Of a DNA stretch of 64,000 nucleotides, positions 45,719-64,000 are shown one piece after another. The position numbers and the translations under genes were made by a program. Positions within the stretch are counted from its first letter, which is position 1; the number at the start of each line of letters is the position of its first letter. Source of the DNA: Microbacterium sp. (GTDB taxonomy: Bacteria > Actinomycetota > Actinomycetes > Actinomycetales > Microbacteriaceae); NCBI RefSeq assembly GCF_017305435.1, contig NZ_JAFKIP010000003.1, positions 124,001 to 188,000 on the forward strand, written 5' to 3'. Below the pieces are notes generated by a model, which was not told the DNA's origin, did not search any database, and was given only the letters and a program-made list of their open reading frames with translations.

Positions 45719-47298
45719 TGGCCGTCACCGCACAGACGACCGTGACCACGGCGTACAGAAACCTCATCGACGATCTGCGTGAACGGACCGATCGGATTGC
45801 CCGCGGCGGCCCCGAGGCCTCCCGCGCCCGGCACGTCGCTCGCGGCAAGCTGCTGGCCCGCGACCGCATCGACACTCTGCTCGATCGGGGCTCGCCCTTC
45901 CTCGAGCTCGCGCCGCTCGCCGCGTGCGACCTCGGCGACGACTGGCCCGCCGCCGGCGTCGTCGCTGGGATCGGCCTGGTCGCCGGCCGCCACGTCATGA
46001 TCGTCGCCAACGACGCCACGGTCAAGGGCGGCACCTACCACCCGCTCACGGTGAAGAAGCACCTGCGCGCGCAGGAGGTCGCCGCCGAGAACCGGCTGCC
46101 CTGCATCTCCCTCGTCGACTCGGGCGGCGCGTTCCTGCCGATGCAGGACGAGGTCTTCCCCGATCGCGACCACTTCGGCCGCATCTTCTACAACCAGGCG
46201 CGGATGTCCCGCGACGGCATCGCTCAGATCGCCGCCGTCATGGGTTCGTCGACAGCCGGCGGCGCCTATGTGCCCGCGATGAGCGACGAGACCGTCATCG
46301 TCCGGAACCAGGGCACGATCTTCCTCGGCGGGCCGCCGCTCGTGAAGGCGGCGACCGGCGAGATCGTGAGCGCCGAGGAGCTCGGCGGCGGCGTGACCCA
46401 CTCGCGAGTCTCAGGCGTCACGGATCATCTCGCCGAGAACGATCACCACGCGCTCGAGATCGTCCGGGAGATCGTCGCCACGCTCCCCCGATCGGCGCCG
46501 CTGCCGTACGACCTCGAGCTCCCCGCCGACCCGCCGCTGCATGACCCCGAGACGCTCACCGACGTCGTCCCGGTCGAGCTGACGACTCCCTACGACGCCC
46601 GCGAGATCATCATCCGACTCGTCGACGGCAGCCGATTCACGGAGTTCAAACGCGAATACGGCGACACCCTCGTCACGGGTTTCGCGCACATCCACGGGCA
46701 CCCCGTCGGCATCGTCGCCAACAACGGCGTCCTGTTCGCGGAGTCCGCGATGAAGGGGGCGCACTTCATCGAGCTGTGCGATCAGCGCGGCATTCCGCTG
46801 CTGTTCCTGCAGAACATCACGGGCTTCATGGTCGGGCGCGAGTACGAGCACGGCGGCATCGCCAAGCACGGCGCCAAGATGGTCAACGCCGTCGCGTGCG
46901 CCCGCGTGCCGAAGCTGACGGTCGTCGTGGGCGGCTCGTTCGGCGCCGGCACGTACTCGATGTGCGGGCGGGCGTACTCGCCGCGTTTCCTCTGGCTCTG
47001 GCCGGGCGCGCGGGTGTCGGTGATGGGTGGGCCGCAGGCGGCATCCGTCCTCTCCACGGTGCGGGCGGAACAGCTGGATGCCGCCGGCACACCCTGGACG
47101 GACGAAGAGCGGGCCGCGTTCGAGCAGCCGATCCGGGAGCAGTACGAACGCCAGGGCAGCCCCTACTATTCGACCTCGCGCCTGTGGGACGACGGCGTGA
47201 TCGAACCGGCGCAGACCCGCGACATCCTCGGCCTCGCCCTCGACGTCGTCTCCCGCGCCCCGATGGCCGATGCCGGCTACGGCGTCTTCCGGATGTGA
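45718..47298 (+). CDS. Acyl-CoA carboxylase beta subunit, methylcrotonyl-CoA carboxylase-like
   Basis: A 526-aa carboxyltransferase that moves CO2 from carboxybiotin to an acyl-CoA. Its two crotonase-like halves carry [20 protein letters not shown] near residue 138 and [20 protein letters not shown] near 362; the first is characteristic of the 3-methylcrotonyl-CoA carboxylase branch (AccD1 in mycobacteria), implying leucine/isovalerate breakdown. The biotin-bearing alpha subunit follows at once. The assignment as MCC is by motif; geranyl-CoA or another acyl-CoA is not excluded. Confidence 0.92.
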
Positions 47299-47303
47299 TC
47301 GCA

Positions 47304-49333
<2,030 letters not shown>

Positions 49334-49337
<4 letters not shown>

Positions 49338-49837
49338 GTGGCGGCATGGCTCCCGCGCGGATCACCCAGCGCGGGCTCTACTTCGAGGAATTCATCGAGG
49401 GCGCGGTCTACGTGCACGCCCCCGGACGCACCGTCACCGAGGCCGACAACGTGCTTTTCACGACGCTCACGATGAACACGCAGTCGCTGCACCTGGATGC
49501 CGCCTGGTCGGCGGAGACGGAGTTCGGCGAGCGCCTCGTCAATTCGATGTTCACGCTGTCGACGATGGTCGGGCTCTCGGTCGCGCAGCTCACGCAGGGC
49601 ACGATCGTCGCGAACCTCGGGTTCGATCAGGTGCGGTTCCCCGCGCCCGTGCGGGTGGGCGACACGCTCTACGCCGAGACCCTCATCGCCGGCAAGCGTC
49701 CGTCGTCGTCGCGGCCCGGTCAGGGCATCGTCGAGTTCGCGCATACGATGCGCAACCAGCGCGGCGAGGTCGTCGCCGAGGCCACGCGCAAAACCCTCAT
49801 GCTGTGCGTTCCCGGGGCGACGGAGGATGCCCCGTGA
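49334..49837 (+). CDS. MaoC-family acyl-CoA dehydratase
   Basis: A 167-aa hot-dog-fold hydratase. It has RGLYFEEFIEGAVYVHAPGR at the start, the conserved DNVLFTTLTMNTQSLHLD segment (near residue 37), and GFDQVRFPAPVRVGDTLYAE (near 96), typical of the MaoC/mesaconyl-CoA hydratase-like proteins found beside CitE genes. It should add water to an enoyl-CoA. Overlaps with both neighbours (ATGA, GTGA) show one tight operon. Confidence 0.9.
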
Positions 49838-50655
49838 TCGCCGGACCCGCACTGCTGTTCTGCCCCGGGGACCGGCCCGAGCGCTACGCGAAAGCGGCGG
49901 CCGCGGCCGACACGGTCATCATCGATCTCGAGGACGCCGTCGCCCCCGCCGACAAGGCCCGGGCGCGCGAGGCTCTCGTCGCGGCGGCATCCGCGGCATC
50001 CCTCGACCCGGCCACAACGATCGTGCGCGTCAATCCCGCCACGACCGAGGAGTTCGCGCGAGACCTGCAGGCCGTGCGGCAGACGGCGTTCACGACCCTC
50101 ATGCTCGCCAAGGCCGAGAGCGCGGTGCAGGTCGACGCGCTCGCCTCGAGCGATGACGCCTTCCGTGTGATCGCCCTGTGCGAGACCGCCCTGGGCGTCA
50201 CGCGTTCCGCAGAGATCGCCGCGCACCCCGCCGTCATCGGCATGATGTGGGGTGCGGAGGATCTCATCGCGAGCATGACGGGTCGCACGAGCCGCTTCCC
50301 CGACGGGAGCTACCGCGACGTCGCCCGACACGCGCGCGCGACGGTGCTGCTGCATGCCCGCGCGTTCGGGAAGGTCGCGATCGACGCCGTACACATCGAC
50401 ATCGCCGATACGGACGGGCTTCGCGCCGAGGCCGAGGATGCCGCCGCCTCCGGCTTCCAGGCGACCGCCTGCATCCACCCGACGCAGGTCGAGGTCATCC
50501 GCGCCGCCTACGCGCCCACGGAGGAAGAACGCGCCTGGGCCGCGCGCGTGCTCGACGAGGCGACCCGGCAGCCGGGGGTCTTCCGCTTCGAGGGGCGCAT
50601 GATCGACGAACCGATCCTGCGACAGGCATGCGAACTCGTGCGGGGTCGCCGCTGA
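49834..50655 (+). CDS. CitE-like HpcH/HpaI lyase
   Basis: A 273-aa TIM-barrel lyase of the CitE group acting on beta-hydroxyacyl-CoA esters. Visible are RPERYAKAAAAADTVIIDLE near residue 14, VRVNPATTEE near 66, the metal-binding Glu in ALCETALGV and Asp in MWGAEDLIASM. In mycobacteria the same order, carboxylase-MaoC-CitE, belongs to leucine/itaconate catabolism, which suggests cleavage of a hydroxymethylglutaryl- or citramalyl-type CoA here (inference). No isovaleryl-CoA dehydrogenase gene is in the window. Confidence 0.88.
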   Translation: MIAGPALLFCPGDRPERYAKAAAAADTVIIDLEDAVAPADKARAREALVAAASAASLDPATTIVRVNPATTEEFARDLQAVRQTAFTTLMLAKAESAVQVDALASSDDAFRVIALCETALGVTRSAEIAAHPAVIGMMWGAEDLIASMTGRTSRFPDGSYRDVARHARATVLLHARAFGKVAIDAVHIDIADTDGLRAEAEDAAASGFQATACIHPTQVEVIRAAYAPTEEERAWAARVLDEATRQPGVFRFEGRMIDEPILRQACELVRGRR

Positions 50656-50674: not shown

Positions 50675-51382
50675 TCAGCCGAACGCGCGGGAACGAGCTC
50701 GGAGCGCGGCGAGCGCGTGCGCGCTCAGACCGTGCGCACGCAGGTATTCCGCCGCACCGCCCTCCGCCCTCAGCAACGCGAGGATGTACTCCATCACCTC
50801 GGCCGGGCTCTCGACGTTCAACCGCCATGCCTCCGCGATCTCACGTTCGCCGAGGTCCCGAGACGCGAGCATCTGTTCGACGTACTCGCGCCGGTGTGGG
50901 TAGACCTGATCGCCCGACAGCGCGTAGTCGGCGATGATGTCGGCCTCCGTCGCTCCGGCCGCCGACAGCACGAGAGCGACGATCAGGCCCGTGCGGTCCT
51001 TCCCGATCGTGCAGTGCACGGCGACGGGCCCCTCGGCGGATGCCACGGCATCCACGATCTCGGCGAGCACTTCGCCCCGCGTCTCGATGACCTGCTGCAT
51101 GAGCTGCTCGAGGTTGCCGTCGATGGGGACGGTGTTTCCGGGGAAGCGGTAGACGGGCAGGGCGGCGACCTCGATCTCGTGGGCGCCGGCAGCGCCTTCG
51201 CCCGGTTCGCGAAGGTCGATGACACGCACGACCCCGAACGCGCGCAGCACCTCGGCCCCGGCGGGCGTCAGCTCGTGCAGCGCAGACGACCGCACGAGCC
51301 AGGGCTGTGCGGAACTCGCTGCGAAGAATGCGCGCGCGTTGAACGCCCCCTCGAGATCGAGATGCCGTGCGATCGTGCTCAC
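50675..51382 (-). CDS. Tyrosine/serine-type protein phosphatase
   Basis: A 235-aa phosphatase of the bacterial dual-specificity/PtpB-like group. The P-loop is HCTIGKDRTG, with nucleophile Cys124 and Arg130, and the early FGVVRVIDLREPGEG segment is typical. Relatives can act on phosphotyrosine, phosphoserine or phosphoinositides, so the substrate is open. The GTG start overlaps the stop of the HAD gene (GTGA). Confidence 0.9.
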   Translation of the reverse strand: MSTIARHLDLEGAFNARAFFAASSAQPWLVRSSALHELTPAGAEVLRAFGVVRVIDLREPGEGAAGAHEIEVAALPVYRFPGNTVPIDGNLEQLMQQVIETRGEVLAEIVDAVASAEGPVAVHCTIGKDRTGLIVALVLSAAGATEADIIADYALSGDQVYPHRREYVEQMLASRDLGEREIAEAWRLNVESPAEVMEYILALLRAEGGAAEYLRAHGLSAHALAALRARSRAFG

Positions 51383-52368
51383 GGCGCACTCGTGATCGCG
51401 CGCATCGCTGCCGCGAGCTCGATGGTCGCGCCGGACCCGCGCTCGGCGGGAGGGACGGCGTGCGGGAGCGCCATCGGGGCGCATCCGCAGTTCGGCGCTG
51501 CGGCAGCGCCCGGGCGCAGAGCGGCGAGGCCCGCCGCCCCGAGGCGCCGCGCGCGACGGATGTCCGCCGGCGTCGCGATCTGCGGGGAAACGGCTGCACC
51601 CACCCCCCCGGTTGGCGCCACCGCGGCAGAGTCCGGGGCGGCGGGCACGATGACCTCGCACGCGATGGCCGTGCCCGCGGGCGCGAGATACGCGATGAGC
51701 TCCTGCGGCCACACCGCGACGAACTCCGCACCCGCCGCCCGCAGCCGGTCGGCCGAGTGCATTCCCCAACTGACCCCCACCACCCGCACTCCCGCGGCGA
51801 GCGCCGCCTCGGCATCGCCGACCGTATCGGTCACGAGCACCGTGTCGGAGGCTGCCGCCTCGGCGTCCGCAGACCCCTCGTCGAAGGACGGCGAGCACCG
51901 ACGACCGACGCCCTGCGCGGCGTCGGCGAGGAACCGCCTCAGCCCCGCGCTCTTGTCGGGCTCGACATCGCCGCCGAACACGTGCGCGAAGCAGAACTGC
52001 AGGCCGTTCTCGTCGAGCACCCGCCGGATGACACTCGTCGCGTTCGACGACAGCACCGCGAGGGTGGCGCGCGGCGCGAGCGCGTGGACCACGTCGGCGA
52101 TCCCCGGGACGAGCGTCGGGCGGTAGTCGGACTCGAGCTTCTCGAAGAAGCGGTCGATGACGGCATCCGCCAGTCTCTCGTCCTCGCAGAAAGCGCGGAT
52201 CGACGCGAAGAAGTTGCCCTCGAAGTGCGAGAAAAAGTCCTCGGCGGTGTCGATGCCCAGTCCGAACTCCTCCTGGACACCCTGAAAGACCTCCCACGAC
52301 GCGACCCGCGTCTGGACGAGGGTGCCGTCGAGATCGAAGACGATCCTGGTGGCGGGCTGCGCGGGCAT
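51379..52368 (-). CDS. HAD-superfamily hydrolase with low-complexity C-terminal tail
   Basis: A 329-aa protein. Residues 1 to about 225 are a HAD phosphatase resembling phosphoglycolate phosphatases: FDLDGTLV with Asp12 and Asp14, LSSNATS (motif II), the Lys in EPDKSAG, and VTDTVGDAEAALAAG (motif IV). The final ~95 residues are Ala/Pro/Gly-rich, with an odd NCGCAPM cluster, and do not look like a folded domain. Middle gene of a three-gene minus-strand operon. Substrate unknown. Confidence 0.85.
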   Translation of the reverse strand: MPAQPATRIVFDLDGTLVQTRVASWEVFQGVQEEFGLGIDTAEDFFSHFEGNFFASIRAFCEDERLADAVIDRFFEKLESDYRPTLVPGIADVVHALAPRATLAVLSSNATSVIRRVLDENGLQFCFAHVFGGDVEPDKSAGLRRFLADAAQGVGRRCSPSFDEGSADAEAAASDTVLVTDTVGDAEAALAAGVRVVGVSWGMHSADRLRAAGAEFVAVWPQELIAYLAPAGTAIACEVIVPAAPDSAAVAPTGGVGAAVSPQIATPADIRRARRLGAAGLAALRPGAAAAPNCGCAPMALPHAVPPAERGSGATIELAAAMRAITSAP

Positions 52369-52385: not shown

Positions 52386-53429
52386 TCAGTGTGCGCCGTC
52401 GACGGCGGCCGACGCCGCCGCAGCCGCCCGGGCGGAGTACAGGTCAGTGAGGAACTGCGGGCCGACGAACTCCTGGATCTCGCCCCACCCGCGGGCATCC
52501 GCGTCGTCGCGCCGCCGCCACTCGGCGAGCACGTTGTAGCCGACGGTGCCCGGTCCGGCCTGCCACGGGAAGCTCGTGCGTCCGAAGCCCGTGAGGTGGT
52601 GGGTCTTGCCGCGCACGTCCTCGACCTCGATCTCGAGCGCCTTGGCGTAGAAGCCCTGGCGGATGACGCGATTGCGGCCCGCTCGGATGCCGTAGACCTC
52701 GCCGTGGTCGAGGACGTAGCCGTGCGTGACGGCGCCCTCGGTGGGGGTGTCGGGGCCGGCGGAATGGTCGAGGTCGAAGATGCCGTGGATCGCGAAGTCC
52801 TTCGAGAAGTGCGCGTGCAGCCACGTCATGTTGTGGCCCTGGTGCTCGTCGCGCAGACCCCAGGAGTGGTCCATCGTCGAGACGCAGTCGATCGCGTGCT
52901 TCTGGCCGCGCAAGGTCAGCTCGCCCTCGAAGCGGCCGGTCTGGTCGAAGTGCCCCTTGTAGGCGGCGCCCCACGCGAAGGAGGTGTCGGCCTGCTGCGC
53001 CGCGGTGATGGGGTCCTGCGCGGGGTCGGAGATGTCGTAGGCGGGCATGAGGGCCGTGTAGCGGAAGTGCAGATCGACGTTGCGGCCGTTCGAGTACGCG
53101 ACGTCCCAGACGCGGTTCGGCTCGATCGTCTTCACGCTGAGCCCGTTGGCGAGCGTGTAGTCGCGGAGGTTCCGCGGCTCGGGGATCGCGAGGTGGTGCT
53201 GCGCGTCCCAGAAGTCGCCCTGCCACGGCTGGTCGACGAAACGCGAGTTGATGTGGACCGTCGAAATCACGACACCCGCGTTCGGGCGGAACAGGGCGTA
53301 CACCCCGATGTTGATGGGCGCCGCGTCGGGCGTCGCTCCCGGCACGTAGCAGCCGAAGAAGTTGGTTTCCGCCCACGTCTGGCCGTCGCTGGTCGGCTCA
53401 TGGAAATCGGCGTCGGCATCGGTGATCAC
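52386..53429 (-). CDS. CrtC/AttH-like (lipocalin-fold) protein of unknown function
   Basis: A 347-aa soluble beta-rich protein. Trp- and His-rich stretches (DQPWQGDFWDAQHHLAIPEP, DCVSTMDHSWGLRDEHQGHN, MTWLHAHFSKDFAIHGIFDL) resemble the tandem lipocalin-like domains of carotenoid hydratase CrtC, AttH and DUF7064/7065 proteins, many of which sit beside catabolic genes for lipids or terpenoids. Confidence in the family is moderate and no reaction is assigned. GTG start at 53429 with a GAGGAGG box. It is divergent from the BMC operon and shares its control region. Confidence 0.72.
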   Translation of the reverse strand: MITDADADFHEPTSDGQTWAETNFFGCYVPGATPDAAPINIGVYALFRPNAGVVISTVHINSRFVDQPWQGDFWDAQHHLAIPEPRNLRDYTLANGLSVKTIEPNRVWDVAYSNGRNVDLHFRYTALMPAYDISDPAQDPITAAQQADTSFAWGAAYKGHFDQTGRFEGELTLRGQKHAIDCVSTMDHSWGLRDEHQGHNMTWLHAHFSKDFAIHGIFDLDHSAGPDTPTEGAVTHGYVLDHGEVYGIRAGRNRVIRQGFYAKALEIEVEDVRGKTHHLTGFGRTSFPWQAGPGTVGYNVLAEWRRRDDADARGWGEIQEFVGPQFLTDLYSARAAAAASAAVDGAH

Positions 53430-53678: not shown

Positions 53679-53963
53679 ATGAGGCTCGGAAAGGTCACCG
53701 GTCAGGTCGTATCGACCGCCAAGGACCCCTCGCTCGCGGGGCTGACGCTCCTCATCATCGAGCCGATGCTCCCCGGCGACCCGAACCGGGAGCCGTTCGT
53801 CGCCGCCGACCTCGTCGGCGCAGGGCGAGGCGAGGTCGTCCTGTGCGTCAGCGGCAGCGCCGCGCGCGAAGCGCAGGCCACCTCGGGCACGGTCGTCGAC
53901 TGCGCGGTCGTCGCCATCGCCGACTCGGTGATCGACGCCGGAGATGTCGTCTACAGCAAGTAG
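53679..53963 (+). CDS. Bacterial microcompartment vertex protein, EutN/CcmL type (BMC-P)
   Basis: A 94-aa pentamer-forming protein that caps the vertices of a polyhedral microcompartment shell. Family marks are [20 protein letters not shown] at the start, [30 protein letters not shown] and the C-terminal [18 protein letters not shown]. Length is typical. A GAAGGAG box lies upstream. It is the first gene of the shell operon and is followed 40 bp later by the hexameric shell protein. Confidence 0.95.
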
Positions 53964-54003
53964 ACGATCCACCAGAAGAAACGCAAGAGAACGGAACAGA
54001 CAA

Positions 54004-54315
54004 ATGGCTGCAACCGAAACGACCCCGCAGCGCATCGGCGCGCTGGGTCTCATCGAGACCAAGGGACTCGTCGGCGCGATCGAGGCGGCGGATGCCATGG
54101 TCAAGGCTGCGAACGTCCACGTCGTCGGCACGCGCGAGATCGGCGGAGGCCTCGTCACGGTCCTCGTCCGCGGGGACGTCGGCGCCGTCAAGGCCGCCAC
54201 CGACGCCGGGGCCGTCGCCGCCGGCAAGGCGGGCGAGGTCGTCTCCGTCCACGTCATCCCCCGTCCGCACGACGAGACCGAGGACATCCTCTCGATCATC
54301 GTCCGCGGCAAGTGA
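54004..54315 (+). CDS. Bacterial microcompartment hexameric shell protein, PduA/EutM type (BMC-H)
   Basis: A 103-aa BMC-domain protein forming the facet hexamers of the shell. It has [20 protein letters not shown] (residues 14-33), the pore-loop region EIGGGLVT near 46 and [15 protein letters not shown], a very standard sequence. The central pore would pass small substrates. The first ten residues ([10 protein letters not shown]) are a short polar extension. The ribosome site is weak. It sits between the vertex protein and the aldehyde dehydrogenase. Confidence 0.97.
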
Positions 54316-54386
54316 GCGCCGCCCGGCGCGCACTCACGTAGGGATGAACCGGGCACACGCGTGCCTACGAAAGACGGAGAGATGAG

Positions 54387-55763
54387 ATGACGATCACGCT
54401 GGATGCCGATCTTCAGGCCCTCGCGGAGGTGCGCCGCAAAGCGGATGCCGGGGCGCAGGCCGCGAAGGCGCTCGAGGATGCCGATCAGGGCTTCCTCGAC
54501 GAGCTCGTGCGAGCGATGTCGAAGGCGGGCTACGCCGCCTCCGAGCAGCTCGCACGGCTCGCGGCGGACGAGACGGGCTACGGCGTCTACGAAGACAAGG
54601 TGGTGAAGAACCGCTTCAACACCGGATTCGTCGCCGACTGGATGCTCGAGCGGCGGGCCGTCGGCGTCCTGTGGGTCGATGAGGAGCGCAAGGTCACCGC
54701 GATCGGCTCGCCGATGGGCCTCATCGCGGGGATCATCCCCGTGACGAACCCGACGGCGACCGTGCTGTTCAAGTCGCTCGCGGCCGTCAAGGCCGGCAAC
54801 GCGATCGTCCACGCGCCGCATCCGCGCGCCACGAAGTGCTCGAACCTGGCCGCGGAGATCATGGCGGAGGCGGCGATCAAGGCTGGGGCACCGGAAGGCA
54901 TCATCGGATGCCTCACGACGCCCACCCTCGAGGCGACGGCTGCACTCATGCGGCATCGGGCCGTGCGGCTCGTGCTCGCCACGGGCGGCCCAGGCATGGT
55001 CGCCGCGGCCTACTCGAGCGGCAAGCCGACGATCGCCGTCGGCGCGGGCAATGTGCCGGCATACGTCGACGCATCAACGCCCGATGTGCACGAGTCGGCG
55101 ACGATGATCATCGCGTCGAAGTCGTTCGACAACGGCACGGCGTGCGTCGCGGAGCAGTCGGTCGTCGCGCACGACGCGATCGCCGACGAGCTGTTCCGCG
55201 CGATGGAGGCCGAAGGCGCGTTCTGGCTCGACGCCCACGCGCAGAAGCAGCTGACGCGCACGATCTTCGACGAACGCGGCGGTCTGCGCCCGGATGCCGT
55301 CGGCCAGTCGGCGAACCGTCTCGCCGAGCTGTCCGGGTTCAGTGCTCCCGCGGGCACGAAGGTGCTGGCCGCCCGGCTCGACCGCGTACACAAGGACGAG
55401 TTCCTCAGCCGCGAGATCCTCGGCCCCGTCCTCTCGGTGTACAGCGAACCCGACGCGCAGGCGGGCTGGCGGCGCACGCGCGAGATCCTCGCTCTCGGCG
55501 GCGAAGGGCACTCCGTCGCGGTGCACGCGACCGATCCCGACGTCCTCGCGAACTTCGCGGCTCTGCCCGCGGGGCGCATCATCGTCAACAGCCCGGCACT
55601 GTTCGGCGGCATGGGGTACTCATGCGAGATGGACCCCTCGTTCCAGCTCGGCACGGGCACGTGGTCGGGCTCCATCTGCTCCGATAACGTCACCCCTCTG
55701 CACCTCGTCAATGTCAAGCGCGTCGCCCACGAAGTGCGCCCCTGGCGTTCGGTGTTCGCGTGA
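54387..55763 (+). CDS. CoA-acylating aldehyde dehydrogenase, EutE/PduP type
   Basis: A 458-aa core metabolosome enzyme that oxidises an aldehyde to an acyl-CoA with NAD and CoA. The catalytic Cys253 is in FDNGTACVAEQ, the NAD region in GIIPVTNPTATVLFKS (115-130), and GGMGYSCEMDPSFQLGTGTW lies near the end, as in EutE/PduP. There is no separate N-terminal encapsulation peptide, but residues 5-30 (LDADLQALAEVRRKADAGAQ) could form an amphipathic helix. Chain length of the substrate is not evident. Stop overlaps the next start (GTGA). Confidence 0.95.
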   Translation: MTITLDADLQALAEVRRKADAGAQAAKALEDADQGFLDELVRAMSKAGYAASEQLARLAADETGYGVYEDKVVKNRFNTGFVADWMLERRAVGVLWVDEERKVTAIGSPMGLIAGIIPVTNPTATVLFKSLAAVKAGNAIVHAPHPRATKCSNLAAEIMAEAAIKAGAPEGIIGCLTTPTLEATAALMRHRAVRLVLATGGPGMVAAAYSSGKPTIAVGAGNVPAYVDASTPDVHESATMIIASKSFDNGTACVAEQSVVAHDAIADELFRAMEAEGAFWLDAHAQKQLTRTIFDERGGLRPDAVGQSANRLAELSGFSAPAGTKVLAARLDRVHKDEFLSREILGPVLSVYSEPDAQAGWRRTREILALGGEGHSVAVHATDPDVLANFAALPAGRIIVNSPALFGGMGYSCEMDPSFQLGTGTWSGSICSDNVTPLHLVNVKRVAHEVRPWRSVFA

Positions 55764-56620
55764 TCGGCGCCGTCGTGGCCGACCGACCCGCCTCCACGCA
55801 GAGCGACGAGGGTGACGCGAGCGCCCGCGCCGACGCGCTCCTGAACCGCGCGGCGGCCGCATTCCGGCACGCGATCGCGGGGGCGCAGCCCGCCGCCGTC
55901 GGCATCGACCTCGGTACGGCGACGTGCGTCATCGTCGTCGTCGACGCTGACGGCGGCCCCGCGTGGGTCGACGCCCGGCCGACCGCAGCGGTGCGCGACG
56001 GCGTCGTCGTCGACTTCTTCGGCGCGCGCGACGCCACCGCATCGCTCAAGGCGGATGCCGAAGCGGCGCTCGGCATAGAGATCACCCGCGCGGGCGTCGC
56101 CTATCCGCCGGGCGTCCCCACGTCGGAGGCGGCGGCCTGCCGCTTCGTGCTCGAGTCCGCTGGGATCGACGAGGTGGTCCTTCTCGACGAGGTCTCCGCG
56201 GCGCAGGCCGCACTCGGCCTCACCGACGGCGTGCTGGTGGACGTCGGCGGCGGATCGACGGGTGTCGGCATCTTCCGGGGTGGCGAGCTCGTTCGCGTCG
56301 ACGACCGCCCGGGCGGCGGGACGCACCTCGACTTGATCCTCGCGGGCGGCCTCGGCGTCGACGTCGCCGAGGCGGAGCGCCGCAAGCGCACCGATTCGGC
56401 GTCCTACCGGGGCATCCTCAAGCCCGGGATCCAGCGCATCGCGGCATCCATCGCCGCCATGAGCCCGGATGCCGGAGACCTTCCCGTGCATCTCGCGGGC
56501 GGCGCCGTCATGGTCGACGGCGCCCGCGAGATCATCGCGGGAGAGCTCGGCCGCGAGGTGCACACCTACCCCCACTCCCTGTTCATCACCCCCGTCGGAA
56601 TCGCGAGGACCCTGCTATGA
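55760..56620 (+). CDS. EutJ-like actin/Hsp70-fold protein
   Basis: A 286-aa ATPase-fold protein resembling EutJ of ethanolamine operons. It shows AVGIDLGTATCVIVVVDADG near residue 45 (phosphate 1), LVDVGGGSTGVGIF near 161 (phosphate 2) and HLAGGAVMVDGA near 246 (adenosine). EutJ is proposed to be a chaperone for BMC enzymes or shell; that role is not firmly shown. An N-terminal segment of about 25 residues (ASTQSDEGDASARAD) is extra and probably flexible. Overlaps at both ends place it inside the shell operon. Confidence 0.88.
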   Translation: MIGAVVADRPASTQSDEGDASARADALLNRAAAAFRHAIAGAQPAAVGIDLGTATCVIVVVDADGGPAWVDARPTAAVRDGVVVDFFGARDATASLKADAEAALGIEITRAGVAYPPGVPTSEAAACRFVLESAGIDEVVLLDEVSAAQAALGLTDGVLVDVGGGSTGVGIFRGGELVRVDDRPGGGTHLDLILAGGLGVDVAEAERRKRTDSASYRGILKPGIQRIAASIAAMSPDAGDLPVHLAGGAVMVDGAREIIAGELGREVHTYPHSLFITPVGIARTLL

Positions 56621-57243
56621 GTTCGCTTCGCACGTATGCATTCATCGACCGGATGCAGCCGCAGTGCGCGGCGCATGTCGCCGCCACGAGCCCCGGCGAT
56701 GTGCCGATCGCGGGAATGGCCGAGCTGTTCATCGAGATGGCCCCCGGCAACGAGGTCTTCCGCGCCGCGGACATCGCTCTGAAGGCCGCGGGCGTGCGGC
56801 CCGCCCTGCAGATCGTCGAGCGCGAGTACGGCCTGCTGGAGATCCATTCCGAGCAGCAGGCCGAGGTGCTCGCCTCGGGCCAGGCGATCCTCGACACGCT
56901 GGGCCTCACCGAGAGCGATCGCATCAAGCCGCAGGTCTCGTCGACGCAGTTCATCACGAACGTGCACCCCTACCAGGCGCAGCTGCTCAACAAGTGGCGC
57001 AAGGGATCGCTCCTCATGCCCGGCGACAGCCTGTTCATCCTCGAGTGCGCCCCCGCGGCTTACGTGGCGTTGGCCGCGAACGAAGCCGAGAAGGCCGCGA
57101 ACATCAAGGTCATCGAGATCCGCGCCGTGGGTCGCTTCGGCCGGATGTTCCTCTCCGGCACCGAATCGGACGTCCGCACGGCCATGGAGGCGGCGGTCGC
57201 CGCCCTGGCCGACATCACGGGAGTCGAGGAGGGCCGGCGATGA
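56617..57243 (+). CDS. Tandem-BMC-domain shell protein (BMC-T)
   Basis: A 208-aa protein with two BMC domains, forming pseudohexameric trimers in the shell facets. First domain about 1-100 (MAELFIEMAPGNEVFRAADI, ALKAAGVRPALQIVEREYGL), second about 105-205 (SSTQFITNVHPYQAQLLNKW, SLFILECAPAAYVALAANEA, VIEIRAVGRFGRMFLSG). Such trimers can carry larger gated pores or iron-sulfur clusters; no cysteine is placed for a cluster at the pore. Coupled to EutJ upstream and the dehydrogenase downstream by ATGA overlaps. Confidence 0.92.
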   Translation: MSSLRTYAFIDRMQPQCAAHVAATSPGDVPIAGMAELFIEMAPGNEVFRAADIALKAAGVRPALQIVEREYGLLEIHSEQQAEVLASGQAILDTLGLTESDRIKPQVSSTQFITNVHPYQAQLLNKWRKGSLLMPGDSLFILECAPAAYVALAANEAEKAANIKVIEIRAVGRFGRMFLSGTESDVRTAMEAAVAALADITGVEEGRR

Positions 57244-58541
57244 GCATCCTCGGCGCCGACGCGGTCGATGCAGCCGCCCCATTCGGTCGGCTCGTCGTCA
57301 ACGCCGGCGACCGCGTCACGCCGCTCGCGCGCGATCGCGCGGCGGAGCTCGGTGTCGAGATCGTCGAAGCCGCGCCCTCGTCGCCGCGCGTACCCGGCGC
57401 CCCCTCCGCCGTACCCGCCGCGCCGAGCGCACCGCGGGGTTCCCTGCCACGCGTCGACCTCTCCGCGCGCGGCGCACTCCCCTCCCCGCCCGTGCCCGCG
57501 CTTTTCCGGCGCGGCGCACCATACCCGGGACTTCGCGGCCGCTCCACCCCGGCAGCACCGAGCGCTGGATCGCGGACACCCCCGGCAGCCGGTGGCGGAA
57601 GGGTCGCCCGCGTCACGGTCGTCGGCGCGGGCAACGTCGGAACGCACGCCGCTATGCGCCTGGCCGAAACCGACCTCGTCAACGAGGTCGTGCTGGTCGA
57701 CGTCGTCGAGGGTCTCGCCCGCGGCGTCGCGCTCGACCTCACCCATGCGGCAGGGCTGCTCGGCTTCGCGTCGCGCATCCGCGGAGAGTCATCGATCGCG
57801 GCCGCCGGCCGCTCCGACTACACGATCATCACGGCGGGTCGCCCCCGGCAGCCCGGCATGAGCCGCACCGACCTCACGGCGACCAACGCCGAGATCGTCG
57901 GAACCCTCGCCGAGGCGGTGGGCCGCATCTCACCCGACGGCGTCATCGTCGTCGTGACGAACCCGCTCGACGAGATGACCGAACTGGCCTGGCGCCGTTC
58001 CGGCCTCCCTGAGACGCACGTGATCGGCATGGCCGGGCTCCTCGACTCGGCCCGGTTCCAGGCTCTCGCAGCTCTCGCCTCGGACGGACGCGCCGACGCG
58101 GTCAGCGGGATCGCGCTCGGCAGCCACGGCGACGAGATGGTCTTTCCCTCCAGCCAGGCCCGCATCGGCTCCGACACGGCGTCGGCTCGGCTGGGCGACC
58201 GCTTCGCCGCGACGGTCGACCGCGCCCGCAACTCGGGCGCGGAGGTCGTCGGCCTCCTCGGCAAGGGCAGCGCCTTCATCACCCCGGGTCTCGCCGCGGC
58301 CCGCATGGTGGAGAGCATGATCCGGGGCGACGGCGCGTTGCTCTCGGCGACCGTGCGCCCCCACGGCGAGTACGGCATCGACGGGGTGTACGTGGGCCTC
58401 CCCGTGCGACTGGCTCGCGCTGGCCTCGCCGAGATCGTGACTCTTCCGCTGGAAGCCGCGGAGACCGTGGCGCTACGCGAAGCGGCCGCGAAGATCCGGG
58501 TACGCGTGAGCGAACTCCCCGCCGCCGTGATGGGCGGGTGA
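57240..58541 (+). CDS. Malate-dehydrogenase-like enzyme with BMC-type N-terminal extension
   Basis: A 433-aa NAD-dependent 2-hydroxyacid dehydrogenase. From about residue 123 it is an LDH/MDH: VVGAGNVG (127-134), catalytic His296 in GSHGDEM, Asp269/Arg272 in LDSARF, and Arg203 in RQPGMSR, where lactate dehydrogenases have Gln, so malate/oxaloacetate is the likely pair. Residues 1-45 are a small unit (GRLVVNAGDRVTPLARDRAA) whose TPxAR(D/E) core resembles EutQ and EutT N-termini. A Pro/Ala-rich linker (46-122) joins them. In the shell it could reoxidise NADH made by the aldehyde dehydrogenase (inference). Confidence 0.9.
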   Translation: MSILGADAVDAAAPFGRLVVNAGDRVTPLARDRAAELGVEIVEAAPSSPRVPGAPSAVPAAPSAPRGSLPRVDLSARGALPSPPVPALFRRGAPYPGLRGRSTPAAPSAGSRTPPAAGGGRVARVTVVGAGNVGTHAAMRLAETDLVNEVVLVDVVEGLARGVALDLTHAAGLLGFASRIRGESSIAAAGRSDYTIITAGRPRQPGMSRTDLTATNAEIVGTLAEAVGRISPDGVIVVVTNPLDEMTELAWRRSGLPETHVIGMAGLLDSARFQALAALASDGRADAVSGIALGSHGDEMVFPSSQARIGSDTASARLGDRFAATVDRARNSGAEVVGLLGKGSAFITPGLAAARMVESMIRGDGALLSATVRPHGEYGIDGVYVGLPVRLARAGLAEIVTLPLEAAETVALREAAAKIRVRVSELPAAVMGG

Positions 58542-58542
58542 C

Positions 58543-59577
58543 ATGCGCGCCGTCATCGCTCTCGGCGACGGGACCGTCGACGTCGTCGAGGCCGCCAAGC
58601 CCACACTCGGGCGCGACACCGACGCGATCGTCCGCGTCACCACTGCCGCGATCTGCGGCACCGACCTGGGGCTTCTCCGCGAGCCCGGGCGGCTGCCGCG
58701 CGGAACCATCCTCGGCCACGAGTTCGTCGGCGAGGTCCAGTCGGTCGGATCTGCGGTCCGCGGCATCCGCCCCGGCATGCGCGTCGTCGCCTGCGACTAC
58801 ACTGCGTGTGGCCTGTGCTGGTGGTGCCGTGAGGGCGCCCACTGGCACTGTCCGGAGCGCCGCTTCTTCGGCACGGGCGAGGCCTTCGGGCAGACGCTGC
58901 CCGGGGGGCAGGCCGAATACGTACGCGTACCGTTCGCCGACACCGTCCTCGCGGAGATTCCCGATGGCGTGAGTGACCGCGACGCCGTCTTCCTCGGCGA
59001 CCTCGTTCCCACCGGCTGGGCCGCGCTCGAGCGCGCGGGACTCCGCCACGGGGAGACCGTCGTCATCACGGGCGGCGGCCCCGTCGGGCAGGTGGCGAGC
59101 CTCGTGGCGCAGGCGACCGGAGCCGGTCCCGTCATCATCAGCGAACCCGACGCCGGGCGGCGCGACGTTGCCGCCGCGCTCGGGGCGACCGCGGTCTCCC
59201 CCGGCGAGGCGGTCGGGGTGGTTCACGAGATCACCTCGGGTCGCGGGGCCGATGTCGTCATCGACGGCGTGGGCGGCGCGCACGGGCTGGATGCCGCGCT
59301 GAGCCTCGTCCGCTCCCGCGGCCGGATCTGCTCGGTGGGCGTCCCCCACACCGACCGGTGGGACGCACCCGTGCGCGAGGCCTTCGTGCGCGAGGTGACG
59401 CTGTCGTTCGCGGTCGGCGACGCCATCCGCGATCGGGACAGGTTCACGCCGCTCGTCACCGCGGGGCTGCTGACCCCGAGCGCCGTCATCAGCGGCTCCG
59501 CGCCGCTGGCGGGAGCGCGCGACCTGTACGCACGGGCCGCGGCGATGACCGAACTCAAGGCCGTCATCGAGTTGTAG
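58543..59577 (+). CDS. Zinc-dependent alcohol dehydrogenase
   Basis: A 344-aa medium-chain dehydrogenase. Catalytic zinc ligands are Cys38 (ICGTD) and His59 (GHEF); the structural zinc is held by Cys89, 92, 95 and 103. The NAD site is VVITGGGPVGQVASL near residue 172. It resembles broad alcohol/threonine-type dehydrogenases. It begins one base after the previous stop and precedes the regulator by 22 bp, so it belongs to the BMC operon. It may supply aldehyde from an alcohol or remove excess aldehyde. Confidence 0.93.
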   Translation: MRAVIALGDGTVDVVEAAKPTLGRDTDAIVRVTTAAICGTDLGLLREPGRLPRGTILGHEFVGEVQSVGSAVRGIRPGMRVVACDYTACGLCWWCREGAHWHCPERRFFGTGEAFGQTLPGGQAEYVRVPFADTVLAEIPDGVSDRDAVFLGDLVPTGWAALERAGLRHGETVVITGGGPVGQVASLVAQATGAGPVIISEPDAGRRDVAAALGATAVSPGEAVGVVHEITSGRGADVVIDGVGGAHGLDAALSLVRSRGRICSVGVPHTDRWDAPVREAFVREVTLSFAVGDAIRDRDRFTPLVTAGLLTPSAVISGSAPLAGARDLYARAAAMTELKAVIEL

Positions 59578-59599: not shown

Positions 59600-61735
59600 A
59601 TGACCGACACCGCGACGAACGCGCCCGGCGTCGACCGCGCTCGCGTCGTGCTGCGCACGGTGACGACGCAGCCGGCGAACGTGCACGAAGCGGCCCTCAT
59701 CGCGGCATCCGCTCTCACGGACGCCTACGGCGGCGGGTGGTCGATCGCGCTGTGCGACGGGCGACGCTGGACCGATCTCGTCGGGCGCGGAGCCGCACTT
59801 TCCGAACTCGCTGAAGGCGTGCGGGTGGTGCGGGTCCCGGGCCCCGAAGCGGCCCGGGAGGACACGTCCGAGACGGTCCGAGCGATCGAGTCGTGGATTC
59901 GGCTCATCGCCGAGCGCGATCGATATCGTGTCGACCTCGATGCGACCACCGCTGAGGCCGAGTCGCAGTCCGACGTCGCGCACGAGATCCTCGAGGTGCG
60001 CGACCTCGAGCAGGTGCTGCTGTCGATCGTGAACCGCACCCTGGTGCTCCTCGACTCGGATATCTGCGGCGTCCTGCTGCGAGACGGCGATGTCATCAAG
60101 ATGACCGCGTGCGTCGGTCACCGGATGGTCGAGACGGCGCACCTACGCATGCAACGCGGTCAAGGGCTCGCCGGACTCGTCTTCGAGCAGCGTCGACACG
60201 GCGTCGTCGACAGCTATGCCGACGACCGAACGATCAGCGCCGACTTCATTCCGCTCGCCGGTCAGGAAGACACGCGCTCCGCCCTCGCCGTCCCGCTCCT
60301 CGCCCACGACGACGTCATCGGCGTGCTCGAGGTGTGGCGTCGACGCGACAGCGTCTTCACCGAGACGGACGTGCGGCGGATGATCGCGCTCGGCTCGCTC
60401 GCGACGATCGCGATCGAGAATGCCCGCCTGTACGACCTGCAGAAGGTGACGCTTGCGCGACTGAGCGCCGCACACGAGGCGATGGAGCACCAAGTGGCGC
60501 TGCTCGACCGCACGTCACGCCTGCAGAACGCGCTCGTGCGTGTCGTGCTCGATCGCACCGGCGCCTTCGACCAGATCATGCGTACCGTCGCGGACGAATT
60601 CTCGTGCGGCGCCGCCTACGTACGTCGCAACGGCACTCTCGAAGCGAGCGCCGGCGACCTCGGCGACGACGACATCACCCGTGTCGTGCCTGCGGTGCAG
60701 GGCTCGCGCACGGGCCGAGCCGCGTCCCGGCATTCGGTCGGCGGAGACCGCACCGCGTGGACGCACCCCGTCGTCTCGGGCGACCAGGAGATCGGCTGGG
60801 TCGTGCTCGTCGGCGGGACGGAATCGGACGAAGCGATGGCCGCGGCGGCGGCCCAGGTCGCCATGGCGTGCGCACTCGCGCGTCTCGAGCAGCGCGCGGC
60901 GAGCCAGGCCCGCAACGCGGCCTACGAGCAGATCGTCTGGGATCTCGTCGAAGGTCCGCCCGAGCACCGCTCCGCGGCGCTGAGCCGCGCCTCGGAGCTC
61001 GGCATCGCCCTGCACGGCGCGCACCGCGTCGTGCAGGGCGGATTCGACAACCTCGGGGAGCTCGCCCGCGAGAAGGGCTGGCACAACGCCGCGCATGAGG
61101 ACGCGCGACGCGCTGTCCTGCGGGCCGTCCGCGCCGGCGACACCGCGCGTCGGATGCGACTGCTCAGCATGCGCGGCGATTGGATCGTCGCGATCGTCGG
61201 CACCGAGACGGCCGCGGATGCGCGAGAAACGGTCGGCGCGCTCCGCGAGGCGGCGGCTACCGCGCTTCCGGGATTGCGGATGACGTGGGGGGCGAGCTCG
61301 GCATACACGGACCTCATGATGCTGCCGACGGCCTACCGCGAGGCGGTGACCGCGCTCGACGGCGCGCGACGCATGCGACCGGGCCAGTTCTCGCTCTACG
61401 ACGAGCTGGGCATCGTGCGCCTGCTCCTCGGCAGCGGCGGGGACAATCCCGACCTGCAGACGTTCGTCGACGATGTCACCGGACCGCTGCGCGAGTACGA
61501 TCGCAAGCACGACGGCTCGCTCGTACAGACCCTGCGGGCCTTCTTCGACAACGACTGCTCCCAGCGCCGGGCCGCGGACGCTCTCTTCATCCACCCGAAG
61601 ACGCTCAGTTATCGACTGGCGCAGATCAGCGAACTGAGCGCCCTCGATCTCACCAGGCACGACGACCGCATGCGCGCCGACCTCGCGCTGCGTATGCTGC
61701 AGCTGAGCGAGCAACCCGGCGCCGCGAGCCTCTGA
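59600..61735 (+). CDS. GAF-PucR family transcriptional regulator
   Basis: A 711-aa regulator. A first helical/GAF-like part (about 1-110) is followed by a clear GAF domain (about 125-285; SIVNRTLVLLDSDICGVLL, GQGLAGLVFEQRR, ALAVPLLAHDDVIGVLEVWR), a coiled-coil linker, a degenerate second GAF (about 310-430), a CdaR-like GGDEF-related region (about 445-620), and the PucR C-terminal HTH (LRAFFDNDCSQRRAADALFI, LSYRLAQISELS). It probably activates the BMC operon when its substrate is bound. AGAGGAGG precedes the ATG. Confidence 0.9.
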   Translation: MTDTATNAPGVDRARVVLRTVTTQPANVHEAALIAASALTDAYGGGWSIALCDGRRWTDLVGRGAALSELAEGVRVVRVPGPEAAREDTSETVRAIESWIRLIAERDRYRVDLDATTAEAESQSDVAHEILEVRDLEQVLLSIVNRTLVLLDSDICGVLLRDGDVIKMTACVGHRMVETAHLRMQRGQGLAGLVFEQRRHGVVDSYADDRTISADFIPLAGQEDTRSALAVPLLAHDDVIGVLEVWRRRDSVFTETDVRRMIALGSLATIAIENARLYDLQKVTLARLSAAHEAMEHQVALLDRTSRLQNALVRVVLDRTGAFDQIMRTVADEFSCGAAYVRRNGTLEASAGDLGDDDITRVVPAVQGSRTGRAASRHSVGGDRTAWTHPVVSGDQEIGWVVLVGGTESDEAMAAAAAQVAMACALARLEQRAASQARNAAYEQIVWDLVEGPPEHRSAALSRASELGIALHGAHRVVQGGFDNLGELAREKGWHNAAHEDARRAVLRAVRAGDTARRMRLLSMRGDWIVAIVGTETAADARETVGALREAAATALPGLRMTWGASSAYTDLMMLPTAYREAVTALDGARRMRPGQFSLYDELGIVRLLLGSGGDNPDLQTFVDDVTGPLREYDRKHDGSLVQTLRAFFDNDCSQRRAADALFIHPKTLSYRLAQISELSALDLTRHDDRMRADLALRMLQLSEQPGAASL

Positions 61736-61766: not shown

Positions 61767-64000
61767 TCAGCGGTCGAGTCCCGTGCCGGCCGCGCGCCCG
61801 TCTGCGACGGCCGCCTTCGCCAGCGCCAGCAACGCCGGGCCCGCCTCGTCGACGTCGACCGCGATCCGCGTGACGCCCGATTTCCGCAGGCGCGCGAGCA
61901 TCGATTCCGAGACAGGCCCGCTGACACGCCAGCCGATGCGATGACCGGGGCCTTCCGCGGCCGCGTCCGCCACCGACTGCAGCAGCGGTTCGACGCTGGG
62001 GTCGATCTCGTGCCGCGGATCGGAGCTGAGCAGCCCCGACGCCACGTAGCGTTCGAGGGGCTGCGCGGTCAGCAGGACGCGCGGCGGCAGCCCGAGCATC
62101 GCGGCCTGCAGGAGACGTAACTCCACCCAGATCGGGTCCAGACGCTCTGAGAGGGATGCCGCGGCGAGGGCGCCACGCGGGCTCGCGATGTACGCACCGG
62201 GCACGACGGCGGGCGCGAACGGCTCGGCGAGTGCGACGATCGCGTCGGCTTCACCGGCATCCGACACGTTCCGCACCGACAGGTGGACGCGTGGTCCTCC
62301 CTCGCCCTCTATGTGTCCGCGAGCCGCGGCGAGACCGCGCAGCTGCGAGGTGAGCAGCGCGGGAACCCCGACCGGCAGCGCCAGCTCCGGGCGCACATCG
62401 GTGAGCGCCACGGACTGCAGCAGCTCGCTCGTCTCGTCGACGAGGAAGTCGATGGCGCGCACGCCGAACTCCAGGTCGCCGGCGGCGGCGAACAGCGGCG
62501 CGAACGCCGTCTCGATCACCGCCGACAGCCGCGCAAGCCCCGCCTCACCCGGTTCGGGCGCGCCGATCTCGCGCAGGATGTCGGTGAGCTCGGGGCTCGT
62601 CGCGAGCGCATCCGCCGCCGCGACGACCACGCCGACGGCGCCGAGGTGGCGGGCGCGGGCGATCTCCTCCGCGGTTGCGGCGCGCGCGAGGAGGTCGACG
62701 CCTGCGATCGCGCGGCAGTACGCCATCACGGCGTCGAGGTCGGCGTTGCCCGTGAGCGCATCGACGACGGGGATCCGCCCGGCGTAGACCTCGCCGGTGC
62801 CGCCGTCGACAGAGACCCAGTCTCCTTCGCGGAGGGAACGGTCCCCGACGCGCAGCACGTCTCCGTCGATCGACAGCGGGGCGCAACCGACGACGCACGT
62901 CTTGCCGAGGGCGCGCGCGACGACCGCCGCGTGCGATGTCGCGCCCCCGGTCGCGGTCACGACGCCAGCGGCGGCGATCATGCCGTGCAGATCTGTCGGG
63001 CTCGTCACCTCGCGGACCAGGATGACCGACTCGCCGGAACGCGCAAGCTCGCCCGCACGGTCAGGATCCAGGGCGACGATGCCGCTGACGTTCCCGGGGG
63101 ATGCGCCGATGCCCTCGGCCAGCAGGTCACCCGACGCGCGAGCCGCACCGACGGCCTTCTCGTCGAAGGCGGGGCGCACGACGCCGCGGATGTGGTCGAG
63201 GGTGACGGTCTCGAGGATCGATGCCGCCGTATCCCCGTTGTCGCGCAGGAAGTCCGCGGCGATGCGGACAGCCGCGGGCGCCGTGCGCTTTGCCGAACGC
63301 ACCTGAAGGAAGTACAGGACTCCCGACTCCACGGTGAACTCGATGTCGAGGACATCTCTATGCGCGTCTTCGAGCGCGGCGACGGTGCTGCGGAGCTCGT
63401 CGAACAGCTCCGGCTGATGCGCGGCGAGGGAGGCGACCGGTTCAGGGGTGCGGATGCCGGCGACGACGTCTTCACCCTGACTCGCCGCGAGGTATTCGCC
63501 GTAGAGGCCGGGCTCGCCCGTAACCGGGTTCCGAGAGAACACCACACCCGATCCGGAATTCTCGTCGCGGTTGCCGAAGACCATCGTCTGGACGACGACG
63601 GCCGTCCCCATCGCGTGGTCGATGCCGTGGAGCTCGCGATACGTGATCGCACGCCGTGTGTTCCACGACCGGAACACTGCGGCGATCGCGCCGAGGAGTT
63701 GCTCGTGCGGGTCATCGGGAACGGTGTCCTCGCCCGCCGCCTCCAGCTCATCCTGCAGGCGGCGCCAGACGGCGTCGTAGACGGCGCCGGCTTCGGCATC
63801 CTCGCCGAGCTCGTCAAGGACGGCATCCACGGGAGATGCAGGCGGCTCCATCGCATCGAGCACGATCTCGGCGTACATCGCATGGAATCGCGCGAGGATG
63901 TCGGCCATGAACCGCGCGCTGCCCGAGCGGCGCGCGACAGCGATCGCGGCGTTCCGGTCGAGGCCGAGGTTCAGGACCGTGTCCATCATCCCCGGCATGG
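61767..64000 (-). CDS. Pyruvate,phosphate-dikinase-like protein with degenerate C-terminal domain (5' end outside window)
   Basis: The gene enters from the right edge; the visible 744 residues start at the MPGMMDTVLNLGL block, which lies about 100 residues into PPDK. The ATP-grasp part (VVVQTMVFGN, GSGVVFSRNP, GVLYFLQVRSAKRT) and phosphohistidine domain (TATGGATSHAAVVARALG with the catalytic His) are intact. The pyruvate/PEP domain is not: RTEHMF is AAADALA-like, the metal-binding IEVPR is YIASPR, FGTNDLTQ is absent, and the acid Cys of CGEHGGDP is missing (GWRVSGP). It can probably still phosphorylate its His but not use PEP/pyruvate normally. Convergent with the PucR gene. Confidence 0.85.
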   Translation of the reverse strand, partial: MPGMMDTVLNLGLDRNAAIAVARRSGSARFMADILARFHAMYAEIVLDAMEPPASPVDAVLDELGEDAEAGAVYDAVWRRLQDELEAAGEDTVPDDPHEQLLGAIAAVFRSWNTRRAITYRELHGIDHAMGTAVVVQTMVFGNRDENSGSGVVFSRNPVTGEPGLYGEYLAASQGEDVVAGIRTPEPVASLAAHQPELFDELRSTVAALEDAHRDVLDIEFTVESGVLYFLQVRSAKRTAPAAVRIAADFLRDNGDTAASILETVTLDHIRGVVRPAFDEKAVGAARASGDLLAEGIGASPGNVSGIVALDPDRAGELARSGESVILVREVTSPTDLHGMIAAAGVVTATGGATSHAAVVARALGKTCVVGCAPLSIDGDVLRVGDRSLREGDWVSVDGGTGEVYAGRIPVVDALTGNADLDAVMAYCRAIAGVDLLARAATAEEIARARHLGAVGVVVAAADALATSPELTDILREIGAPEPGEAGLARLSAVIETAFAPLFAAAGDLEFGVRAIDFLVDETSELLQSVALTDVRPELALPVGVPALLTSQLRGLAAARGHIEGEGGPRVHLSVRNVSDAGEADAIVALAEPFAPAVVPGAYIASPRGALAAASLSERLDPIWVELRLLQAAMLGLPPRVLLTAQPLERYVASGLLSSDPRHEIDPSVEPLLQSVADAAAEGPGHRIGWRVSGPVSESMLARLRKSGVTRIAVDVDEAGPALLALAKAAVADGRAAGTGLDR

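Follow-up and report, generated by a model that had tools for sequence, protein, structure and literature searches.

A gene cluster at positions 53679-59577 of a 64,000-nucleotide window of Microbacterium sp. DNA (assembly GCF_017305435.1, contig NZ_JAFKIP010000003.1, positions 124,001 to 188,000) is a real locus for a protein-walled bacterial microcompartment (BMC), and it extends on both sides of this core and past the window end. The first enzyme that it seems to lack is probably supplied by genes nearby, which would spend ATP on rearranging or dehydrating an alcohol ahead of its oxidation in the compartment. This flanking module consists of a pyruvate phosphate dikinase-like (PPDK-like) protein, a free phospho-histidine swivel domain, the proteins hyp478 and hyp206, a HAD-family phosphatase and a DUF7064 protein. 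The compartment type, MIC1, is already known; the new proposal is that the flanking module performs its signature step. The fuller reading, a MIC1-type metabolosome with an ATP-driven signature step that runs as set out below, is favoured tentatively. It draws on gene content, its recurrence, an empty site in relatives, domain assignments, the predicted fold of the DUF7064 protein and the tail of the HAD phosphatase, from which we infer reactions, localisation and substrate.

The core contains seven contiguous genes (Table 1). A preliminary description, made from the letters alone, had listed BMC-P, BMC-H, an acylating aldehyde dehydrogenase (AldDH), a EutJ-like protein, BMC-T, a malate-dehydrogenase-like enzyme (MDH) and an alcohol dehydrogenase (ADH). 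Pfam and NCBIfam searches recover all seven in that place and order, the sixth having the lactate/malate dehydrogenase (LDH/MDH) fold by PF00056/PF02866 and the seventh being a zinc enzyme. Three adjoining gene pairs of the run overlap by 4 nt. AldDH scores 483 bits against the aldehyde half of AdhE and 467 bits against acetylating acetaldehyde dehydrogenase (ACDH), both under the curated cut-offs, and its Cys253 is invariant in the four sequences aligned. A genome-wide PF00936 search matched two places only, the BMC-H and BMC-T of this locus, revealing no second BMC-H.

The preliminary description could name no BMC class for this combination, yet the catalogue holds one. The available text of Axen 2014 (PMC4207490) gives MIC1 an AldDH, enzymes of lactate/malate dehydrogenase Pfam families, a zinc-dependent dehydrogenase, a hydrolase, a phosphatase and an MreB-like protein, with no phosphotransacylase or signature enzyme, and treats the type as uncharacterised; the accessible part of a second source assigns it one CcmP homologue (PMC5853799). 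The Microbacterium locus combines shell proteins and AldDH with an LDH/MDH-family enzyme, a zinc-binding dehydrogenase, HAD and PF13350 proteins, a EutJ-like protein whose MreB_Mbl match exceeds the cut-off, and a single CcmP homologue, its one BMC-T; it lacks a phosphotransacylase. By gene content, as distinct from the original member list, it matches MIC1. Among the papers listed in searches of the microcompartment literature, which leaves out preprints and most subscription journals, none assigns MIC1 a function or signature enzyme.

The reported absence of PduL and EutD from the locus holds: the PduL family has no match in the whole genome (control positive), and one phosphotransacetylase (PTA) lies on a different contig. 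EutB likewise has no match in the genome (control positive in E. coli), which rules out a defective ethanolamine-utilising (EUT) locus. The diol dehydratase large subunit also gave no genome match, but its control search matched nowhere either. That no signature enzyme is present stands for the classical types inside 53679-59577 and fails for the surroundings, where the flanking genes on both sides are the best candidates for the signature step.

A plasmid search with AldDH led to Rhodococcus oxybenzonivorans pRB98 (73.5%) and Methylibium petroleiphilum PM1 RPME01 (58%), whose AldDH neighbourhoods are the same as that of the window. A scan of genome contigs gave at least 466 relatives, and the best 80 kept comprise 33 of the window's type (L048-L079, L103), eight of a sister type (L080-L087) and 39 others. 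With L042, L043 and L044 added, the 33 make 36 related loci, several of them partial. AldDH, EutJ and BMC-T occur in all 36, BMC-H in 35, HAD, DUF7064 and ADH in 34, BMC-P and MDH in 33, and the regulator in 32; the PPDK-like gene and hyp478 follow with 30 each (hyp478 as a fragment only in L043 and L076), then hyp206 with 28, a second BMC-H with 27 and the swivel with 25. A gene resembling that of the tyrosine-phosphatase-family protein (TyrP) appears in seven loci and SurE in three. Seven-gene order on one strand is kept in 30 of the 36, ruling out a chance run of genes. Among the six exceptions, L064 and L074 are partial, L056, L061 and L065 have one gene missed by tblastn, and EutJ has moved in Gordonia L050. 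HAD and DUF7064 are divergent and adjoin the first shell gene in every locus holding both (34/34). Of the 30 loci with a PPDK-like block, 26 have it on the HAD side and four on the far side of the regulator; the window genome shows the latter arrangement, its block continuing past the window end. This module recurs beside shell genes in Actinobacteria, Bradyrhizobium and Methylibium. A search for further shared neighbour genes found one family only, in three Pseudonocardia loci, and a scan of viral contigs gave no lead.

Two genomes of the same genus, G330 and G303, show an empty site. Colinear with the window on either side, G330 passes from position 49325 to 67089 after 87 nt and G303 from 49802 to 67767, leaving about 17.8-18.0 kb (about 49.3-67.8 kb) missing. 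CitE is also missing in both and MaoC in G330, so the measured gap may reflect more than one event; we read the stretch at about 50.7-67.1 kb as an island that adjoins a resident operon. In 295 genomes of the genus, 55 match AldDH at E <= 1e-60, and the matches other than the locus are 32-45% identical, many in AdhE-like frames of ~900 residues. The AldDH tree groups the window sequence with Cryobacterium and Subtercola, Microbacteriaceae (100/98).

Table 1. Features of the compartment locus and its surroundings, in window numbering.
Feature	Position	Strand	Remarks
MCC-type beta and alpha subunits (accD, accA), MaoC, CitE	45718..50655	+	resident operon, possible downstream pathway
Tyrosine-phosphatase-family protein (TyrP)	50675..51382	-	PF13350, 130 bits
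HAD-family phosphatase	51379..52368	-	phosphoglycolate-phosphatase-like, under curated cut-offs; 105-residue C-terminal linker and tail
DUF7064 protein	52386..53429	-	GTG start (own reading); AttH / 25-phosphosteroid-lyase fold; candidate phosphate lyase/mutase
BMC-P shell vertex protein	53679..53963	+	ATG 53679; PF03319 EutN_CcmL, 94 bits
BMC-H shell hexamer protein	54004..54315	+	ATG 54004; PF00936 BMC domain, 97 bits
CoA-acylating-type aldehyde dehydrogenase (AldDH)	54387..55763	+	nearest profiles are acylating types
EutJ-like (MreB/Hsp70-fold) protein	55760..56620	+	NF011660, 260 bits, over cut-off; MreB_Mbl match over cut-off
BMC-T, CcmP-like shell protein	56617..57243	+	NF053796 (nearest is CcmP), 253 bits, below cut-off 340
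LDH/MDH-fold dehydrogenase	57240..58541	+	PF00056/PF02866; N-terminal extension of ~120 residues; PR-x-PGMSR loop motif
Zn-dependent medium-chain (MDR) alcohol dehydrogenase (ADH)	58543..59577	+	PF08240/PF00107
GAF + PucR/CdaR-type regulator	59600..61735	+	Pfam; in 32/36 loci
PPDK-like dikinase	61767..64000, gene continues to 64382	-	ATP-grasp and His domains
hyp206	64325-65095, beyond window, same contig	-	weakly MarR-like, below cut-off
hyp478, orphan protein	65049-66488, beyond window, same contig	-	in 30/36 loci
Free phospho-histidine swivel domain	66533-66946, beyond window, same contig	-	PF00391; His invariant 12/12

Within the module, the N/His half of the PPDK-like protein (first 536 residues) scores 410 bits to PPDK. 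In its C-terminal ~334 aa, Pfam recognises no phosphoenolpyruvate (PEP)/pyruvate domain (PEP-utiliser C), and a comparison with PDB sequences returned one chance-level row only. Together with the swivel and its phospho-His motif (PF00391), the ATP-grasp component gives the module two parts of a small-molecule dikinase; hyp478 is the candidate for the third, an acceptor domain of rifampin-phosphotransferase-like fold. Swivel, hyp478 and the end of hyp206 form a single chain in Rhodococcus opacus pROB02 and in genomes G053 and G085. For hyp478 itself, comparison with PDB sequences gave no lead. Several observations weigh against its proposed role: the AlphaFold2 model is poor (predicted local distance difference test, pLDDT, 49), and a fold search with this low-confidence model returned nothing; the hyp478 of the Methylibium shell locus is truncated, with a 31% paralogue and swivel elsewhere on the same plasmid; and relatives occur in four genomes of the class with no shell-gene match (G053, G065, G194, G229). 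A conventional explanation would give the PPDK a normal or anaplerotic role and make DUF7064 and HAD detoxification enzymes, with the real signature enzyme encoded elsewhere in the genome. The PPDK score of the first 536 residues fits it, and the genome-wide signature-enzyme searches covered EutB and diol dehydratase, the latter with a non-working control, and not glycyl radical enzymes. Yet the C-terminal part has no PEP-utiliser C match, hyp478 and the swivel travel with the PPDK-like gene and EutB is absent, making this explanation very improbable.

The DUF7064 protein has the predicted fold of the 25-phosphosteroid lyase group, with PDB 9fzn, 9g2i and 9g4c among its structure matches. Against a lyase role, AttH, a hydratase and pericyclases share this fold with nearly tied Z scores, and an hmmsearch of the DUF7064 profile against PDB chains gave no sequence match at E up to 10. 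As sequence homology is absent, the protein is not placed in the 25-phosphosteroid lyase family. A viral structure library yielded one Catovirus protein of AttH-type fold and no further lead. DUF7064 homologues occur in 15 plasmid records, four of which were opened outside the module. All four contexts have a phosphotransferase or PEP/pyruvate-binding gene adjacent or one gene away, one record having been chosen because its listing already showed such a gene, and DUF7064 is also paired with a PPDK-like gene in L141 and L172. Pairing with an alcohol-type kinase is our own criterion, with no published definition.

The HAD phosphatase has a Rhodococcus orthologue that matches Pfam HAD_2. All 34 shell-linked HAD sequences measured carry a C-terminal linker and an encapsulation-peptide-like tail, which is missing in the single shell-less comparator, from Paraburkholderia. 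This contrast is weakened by the comparator standing alone (n=1), by the absence of a BMC domain there being established for the plasmid only and not the chromosome, and by the window tail, which fails an ad hoc tail motif matched in 26 of 34 sequences.

Outside this gene set, a Sphingopyxis macrogoltabida plasmid (L170) carries P450, alcohol dehydrogenase, tyrosine phosphatase and phosphotransferase genes with a DUF7064 homologue, and R. opacus B4 pROB02 (L137) carries the same four kinds of gene with the swivel-hyp478 fusion. Both are possible further alcohol-phosphate pathways.

The module also occurs without a shell. Paraburkholderia PGU19 encodes the regulator, DUF7064, HAD, swivel, hyp478, hyp206 and PPDK-like proteins, followed by an ADH, an AldDH and an acyl-CoA ligase, and no BMC domain was found on this plasmid. 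A similar ADH-AldDH-ligase trio stands beside the Rhodococcus locus, at 46%, 54% (206 residues of a partial gene) and 50% identity. Because such a trio follows the module in one case and flanks the shell locus in the other, an alcohol seems to be what the module makes; the arrangement suggests that its oxidation falls to the compartment in some cases and to a soluble trio in others. In G085, an extra module copy lies on a contig with no BMC matches and has a tyrosine phosphatase in place of HAD, with shell genes elsewhere in the genome. A second, partly broken module on Methylibium RPME01 (L138, 480-487 kb) contains DUF7064, a HAD fragment, the hyp478-like protein (31%), a swivel, a winged-helix-like protein and a regulator; nearby mutase and ligase genes are presumably the Methylibium 2-hydroxyisobutyrate operon.

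Two further arrangements were seen. On plasmid pA of Rhodococcus pyridinivorans P23 (L139), one cluster combines a PPDK-like gene, three hyp478-like genes accompanied by swivels, and genes for biotin-dependent carboxylases. G085 holds three separate hyp478/swivel modules, one with a full shell set (L044), one with a lone BMC-H (L046) and one with no shell (L172).

In the tentatively favoured mechanism, the PPDK-like protein, the swivel, hyp478 as acceptor subunit and hyp206 would phosphorylate an alcohol not open to direct oxidation, most likely a tertiary one. DUF7064 would then ionise or eliminate the phosphate and shift it to a primary allylic position. The resulting phosphate ester would enter through the CcmP-like gated pore, and HAD, targeted to the lumen by its tail, would free the primary alcohol for conversion by ADH to the aldehyde and by AldDH to acyl-CoA. 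The acyl-CoA would go straight to catabolism, so no PduL would be needed, and the MDH-like enzyme would reoxidise NADH with oxaloacetate. This sink is proposed from the loop PR-x-PG(M/L)(S/T)R, which a strict pattern matches in 24 of 34 sequences and which, by the Arg102/Gln102 rule, would favour malate/oxaloacetate over lactate/pyruvate.

The same parts could instead form an ATP-dependent diol dehydratase. Here the dikinase would phosphorylate a single hydroxyl of a vicinal diol such as 2-methyl-1,2-propanediol and DUF7064 would eliminate the phosphate, giving an enol and then the aldehyde; the set would replace the B12 or glycyl-radical dehydratase of propanediol-utilising (PDU)-type compartments, leaving ADH only to recycle NAD+. 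The second module copy of Methylibium PM1, adjoining the presumed 2-hydroxyisobutyrate operon, is in keeping with this, as is kinase and lyase chemistry of the kind described in the accessible text on the 25-hydroxysteroid pair (PMC8449060, PMC7411048). The idea is nonetheless rather unlikely: the shell-less Paraburkholderia module with its ADH, AldDH and ligase suggests an alcohol product, not an aldehyde, and a luminal HAD would be left with no clear role.

Another scheme, resembling ethanol-utilising (ETU) compartments, would have ADH oxidise a plain primary alcohol and AldDH form the acyl-CoA, the module being co-regulated for a separate purpose. ADH in 34 and acylating-type AldDH in 36 of the 36 loci agree with it, and so does the absence of PduL from the genome. 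However, the module recurs beside shell genes across phyla, and the HAD cargo-like tail occurs in shell-linked sequences and not in the single shell-less one, which makes this scheme improbable. The preliminary description had raised the possibility that ADH alone makes the aldehyde; this would leave the flanking module with no explanation.

For the substrate of the proposed ATP-driven module, the likeliest route would be 2-methyl-3-buten-2-ol to prenol, prenal and 3-methylcrotonyl-CoA, then methylcrotonyl-CoA carboxylase (MCC). The window accD scores 824 bits against AccD1, 740-604 against MCC-labelled chains and at most 265 against most chains labelled propionyl-CoA carboxylase (PCC). On these scores we read it as a putative MCC, and PCC identity is disfavoured. 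In Nocardia jiangxiensis, DUF7064, HAD, the second BMC-H, accD and accA are codirectional, with 10, 64, 77 and 22 nt between aligned parts, and the next open reading frame (ORF) after accA reads by eye as a CoA transferase. An MCC-type set adjoins the second BMC-H in pRB98. The available part of one source says of Methylibium PM1 that 2-methyl-3-buten-2-ol breakdown "may proceed" with prenol as intermediate and an enzyme yet to be characterised (PMC4791888); PM1 carries the compartment locus. Given the MCC-type neighbours and this PM1 route, a hemiterpene is the first-guess substrate, held with modest confidence.

Several findings tell against this assignment. The PCC-beta-labelled chain 9tps scores 726 bits against accD, among the MCC-labelled chains. 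Only three of the 18 genomes or records place MCC-type genes at most 10 kb from AldDH (contig breaks judged by eye), and none was found on the Methylibium and Paraburkholderia plasmids. The accD gene is present in 48 of 59 genomes of the genus, the window copy being 91% identical to that of G330, and accD-accA-MaoC-CitE occurs in G138, of the same genus, with no compartment. As the operon is common in the genus, its nearness to the compartment may be chance; because the AldDH tree pairs Rhodococcus with Nocardia as sisters, the MCC-type linkage amounts to at most two events. It is doubtful that MIC1 as a whole is a hemiterpene organelle, in which a multi-part dikinase and an AttH-fold phosphomutase/lyase outside the shell would turn 2-methyl-3-buten-2-ol, a tertiary alcohol emitted by plants as a volatile, into dimethylallyl phosphate; this would enter by the gated pore and meet a luminal HAD, toxic prenal then giving 3-methylcrotonyl-CoA.

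The accD-accA-MaoC-CitE operon holds no acyl-CoA dehydrogenase, which might have pointed to 3-methylcrotonyl-CoA as the point of entry; this argument was dropped, G138 having the same gene order with no compartment. The solved proteins nearest CitE are citrate-lyase-beta-like, presumably the Mycobacterium ones. Directly upstream of the carboxylase operon, at 45086-45718, an ORF resembles by eye a BioY-type biotin transporter.

If the proposed signature step is right, some compartments are fed by ATP-dependent alcohol activation in place of B12 or radical chemistry, and their cargo enters as an activated phosphate ester made by a dikinase outside the shell. The orphan family hyp478 would find its place as the acceptor subunit, and the step from 2-methyl-3-buten-2-ol to prenol would become testable with named genes in cultured strains. 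On the hemiterpene reading, the isomerase for this step that is missing from fuel-ether degraders would be identified. MIC1, to which the accessible text of 2014 gives neither a signature enzyme nor a function (PMC4207490), would acquire both.

Among the AldDH relatives, Pseudonocardia endophytica (G588) has two copies of compartment type on one contig, each 70% identical to the query. The sister locus (L080-L087), from marine Rhodobacteraceae, Granulosicoccaceae and kin, has AldDH, BMC-T, an N-extended MDH and a RidA-like gene in all eight cases; the genes are named by eye, with the MDH of L081 identified by Pfam. Most or several also have BMC-H, glutamine-synthetase-like, FAD oxidoreductase-like and ABC transporter genes, and the set looks like an amine-using compartment.

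Comparison with known systems places the locus closest to MIC1, with which it shares AldDH, an LDH/MDH-fold enzyme, a zinc-dependent dehydrogenase, a hydrolase, a phosphatase, an MreB-like protein, one CcmP-like protein and the lack of a phosphotransacylase; the available MIC1 description names no dikinase, swivel, AttH-fold protein or function (PMC4207490). It resembles PDU, EUT and ETU systems in its acylating-type AldDH, alcohol dehydrogenase, BMC-H/T/P shell and EutJ-like protein but differs in that the genome lacks EutB and PduL and the acyl-CoA is assumed to be used directly. The two-component dikinases HpeHI, CreHI and PpsAB, which phosphorylate small molecules, likewise keep the ATP-grasp protein apart from the swivel and acceptor-binding part and use a phospho-His relay; compared here by description, they act on phenols in the part of the source available (PMC12167813). 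Here the swivel and acceptor part are separate genes, and the ATP-grasp protein itself carries a His domain along with a long C-terminal part; in fused relatives the swivel leads the chain, whereas HpeH, of 71 kDa, has its catalytic His at residue 581 (PMC12167813). Sterolibacterium activates a tertiary alcohol by the same logic of a kinase and an AttH-fold lyase, the 25-hydroxysteroid kinase and 25-phosphosteroid lyase. The kinase there belongs with the phosphotransferases (40 kDa) rather than the dikinases, the product is an alkene, and no lyase gene lies near the kinase gene according to the accessible text (PMC8449060, PMC7411048); DUF7064 and lyases of this type are 12-14% identical in alignments. 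Linalool isomerase, described in the available text as a membrane-anchored single enzyme with no compartment mentioned, carries out the kind of reaction proposed here, from a tertiary to a primary allylic alcohol (PMC4791888).

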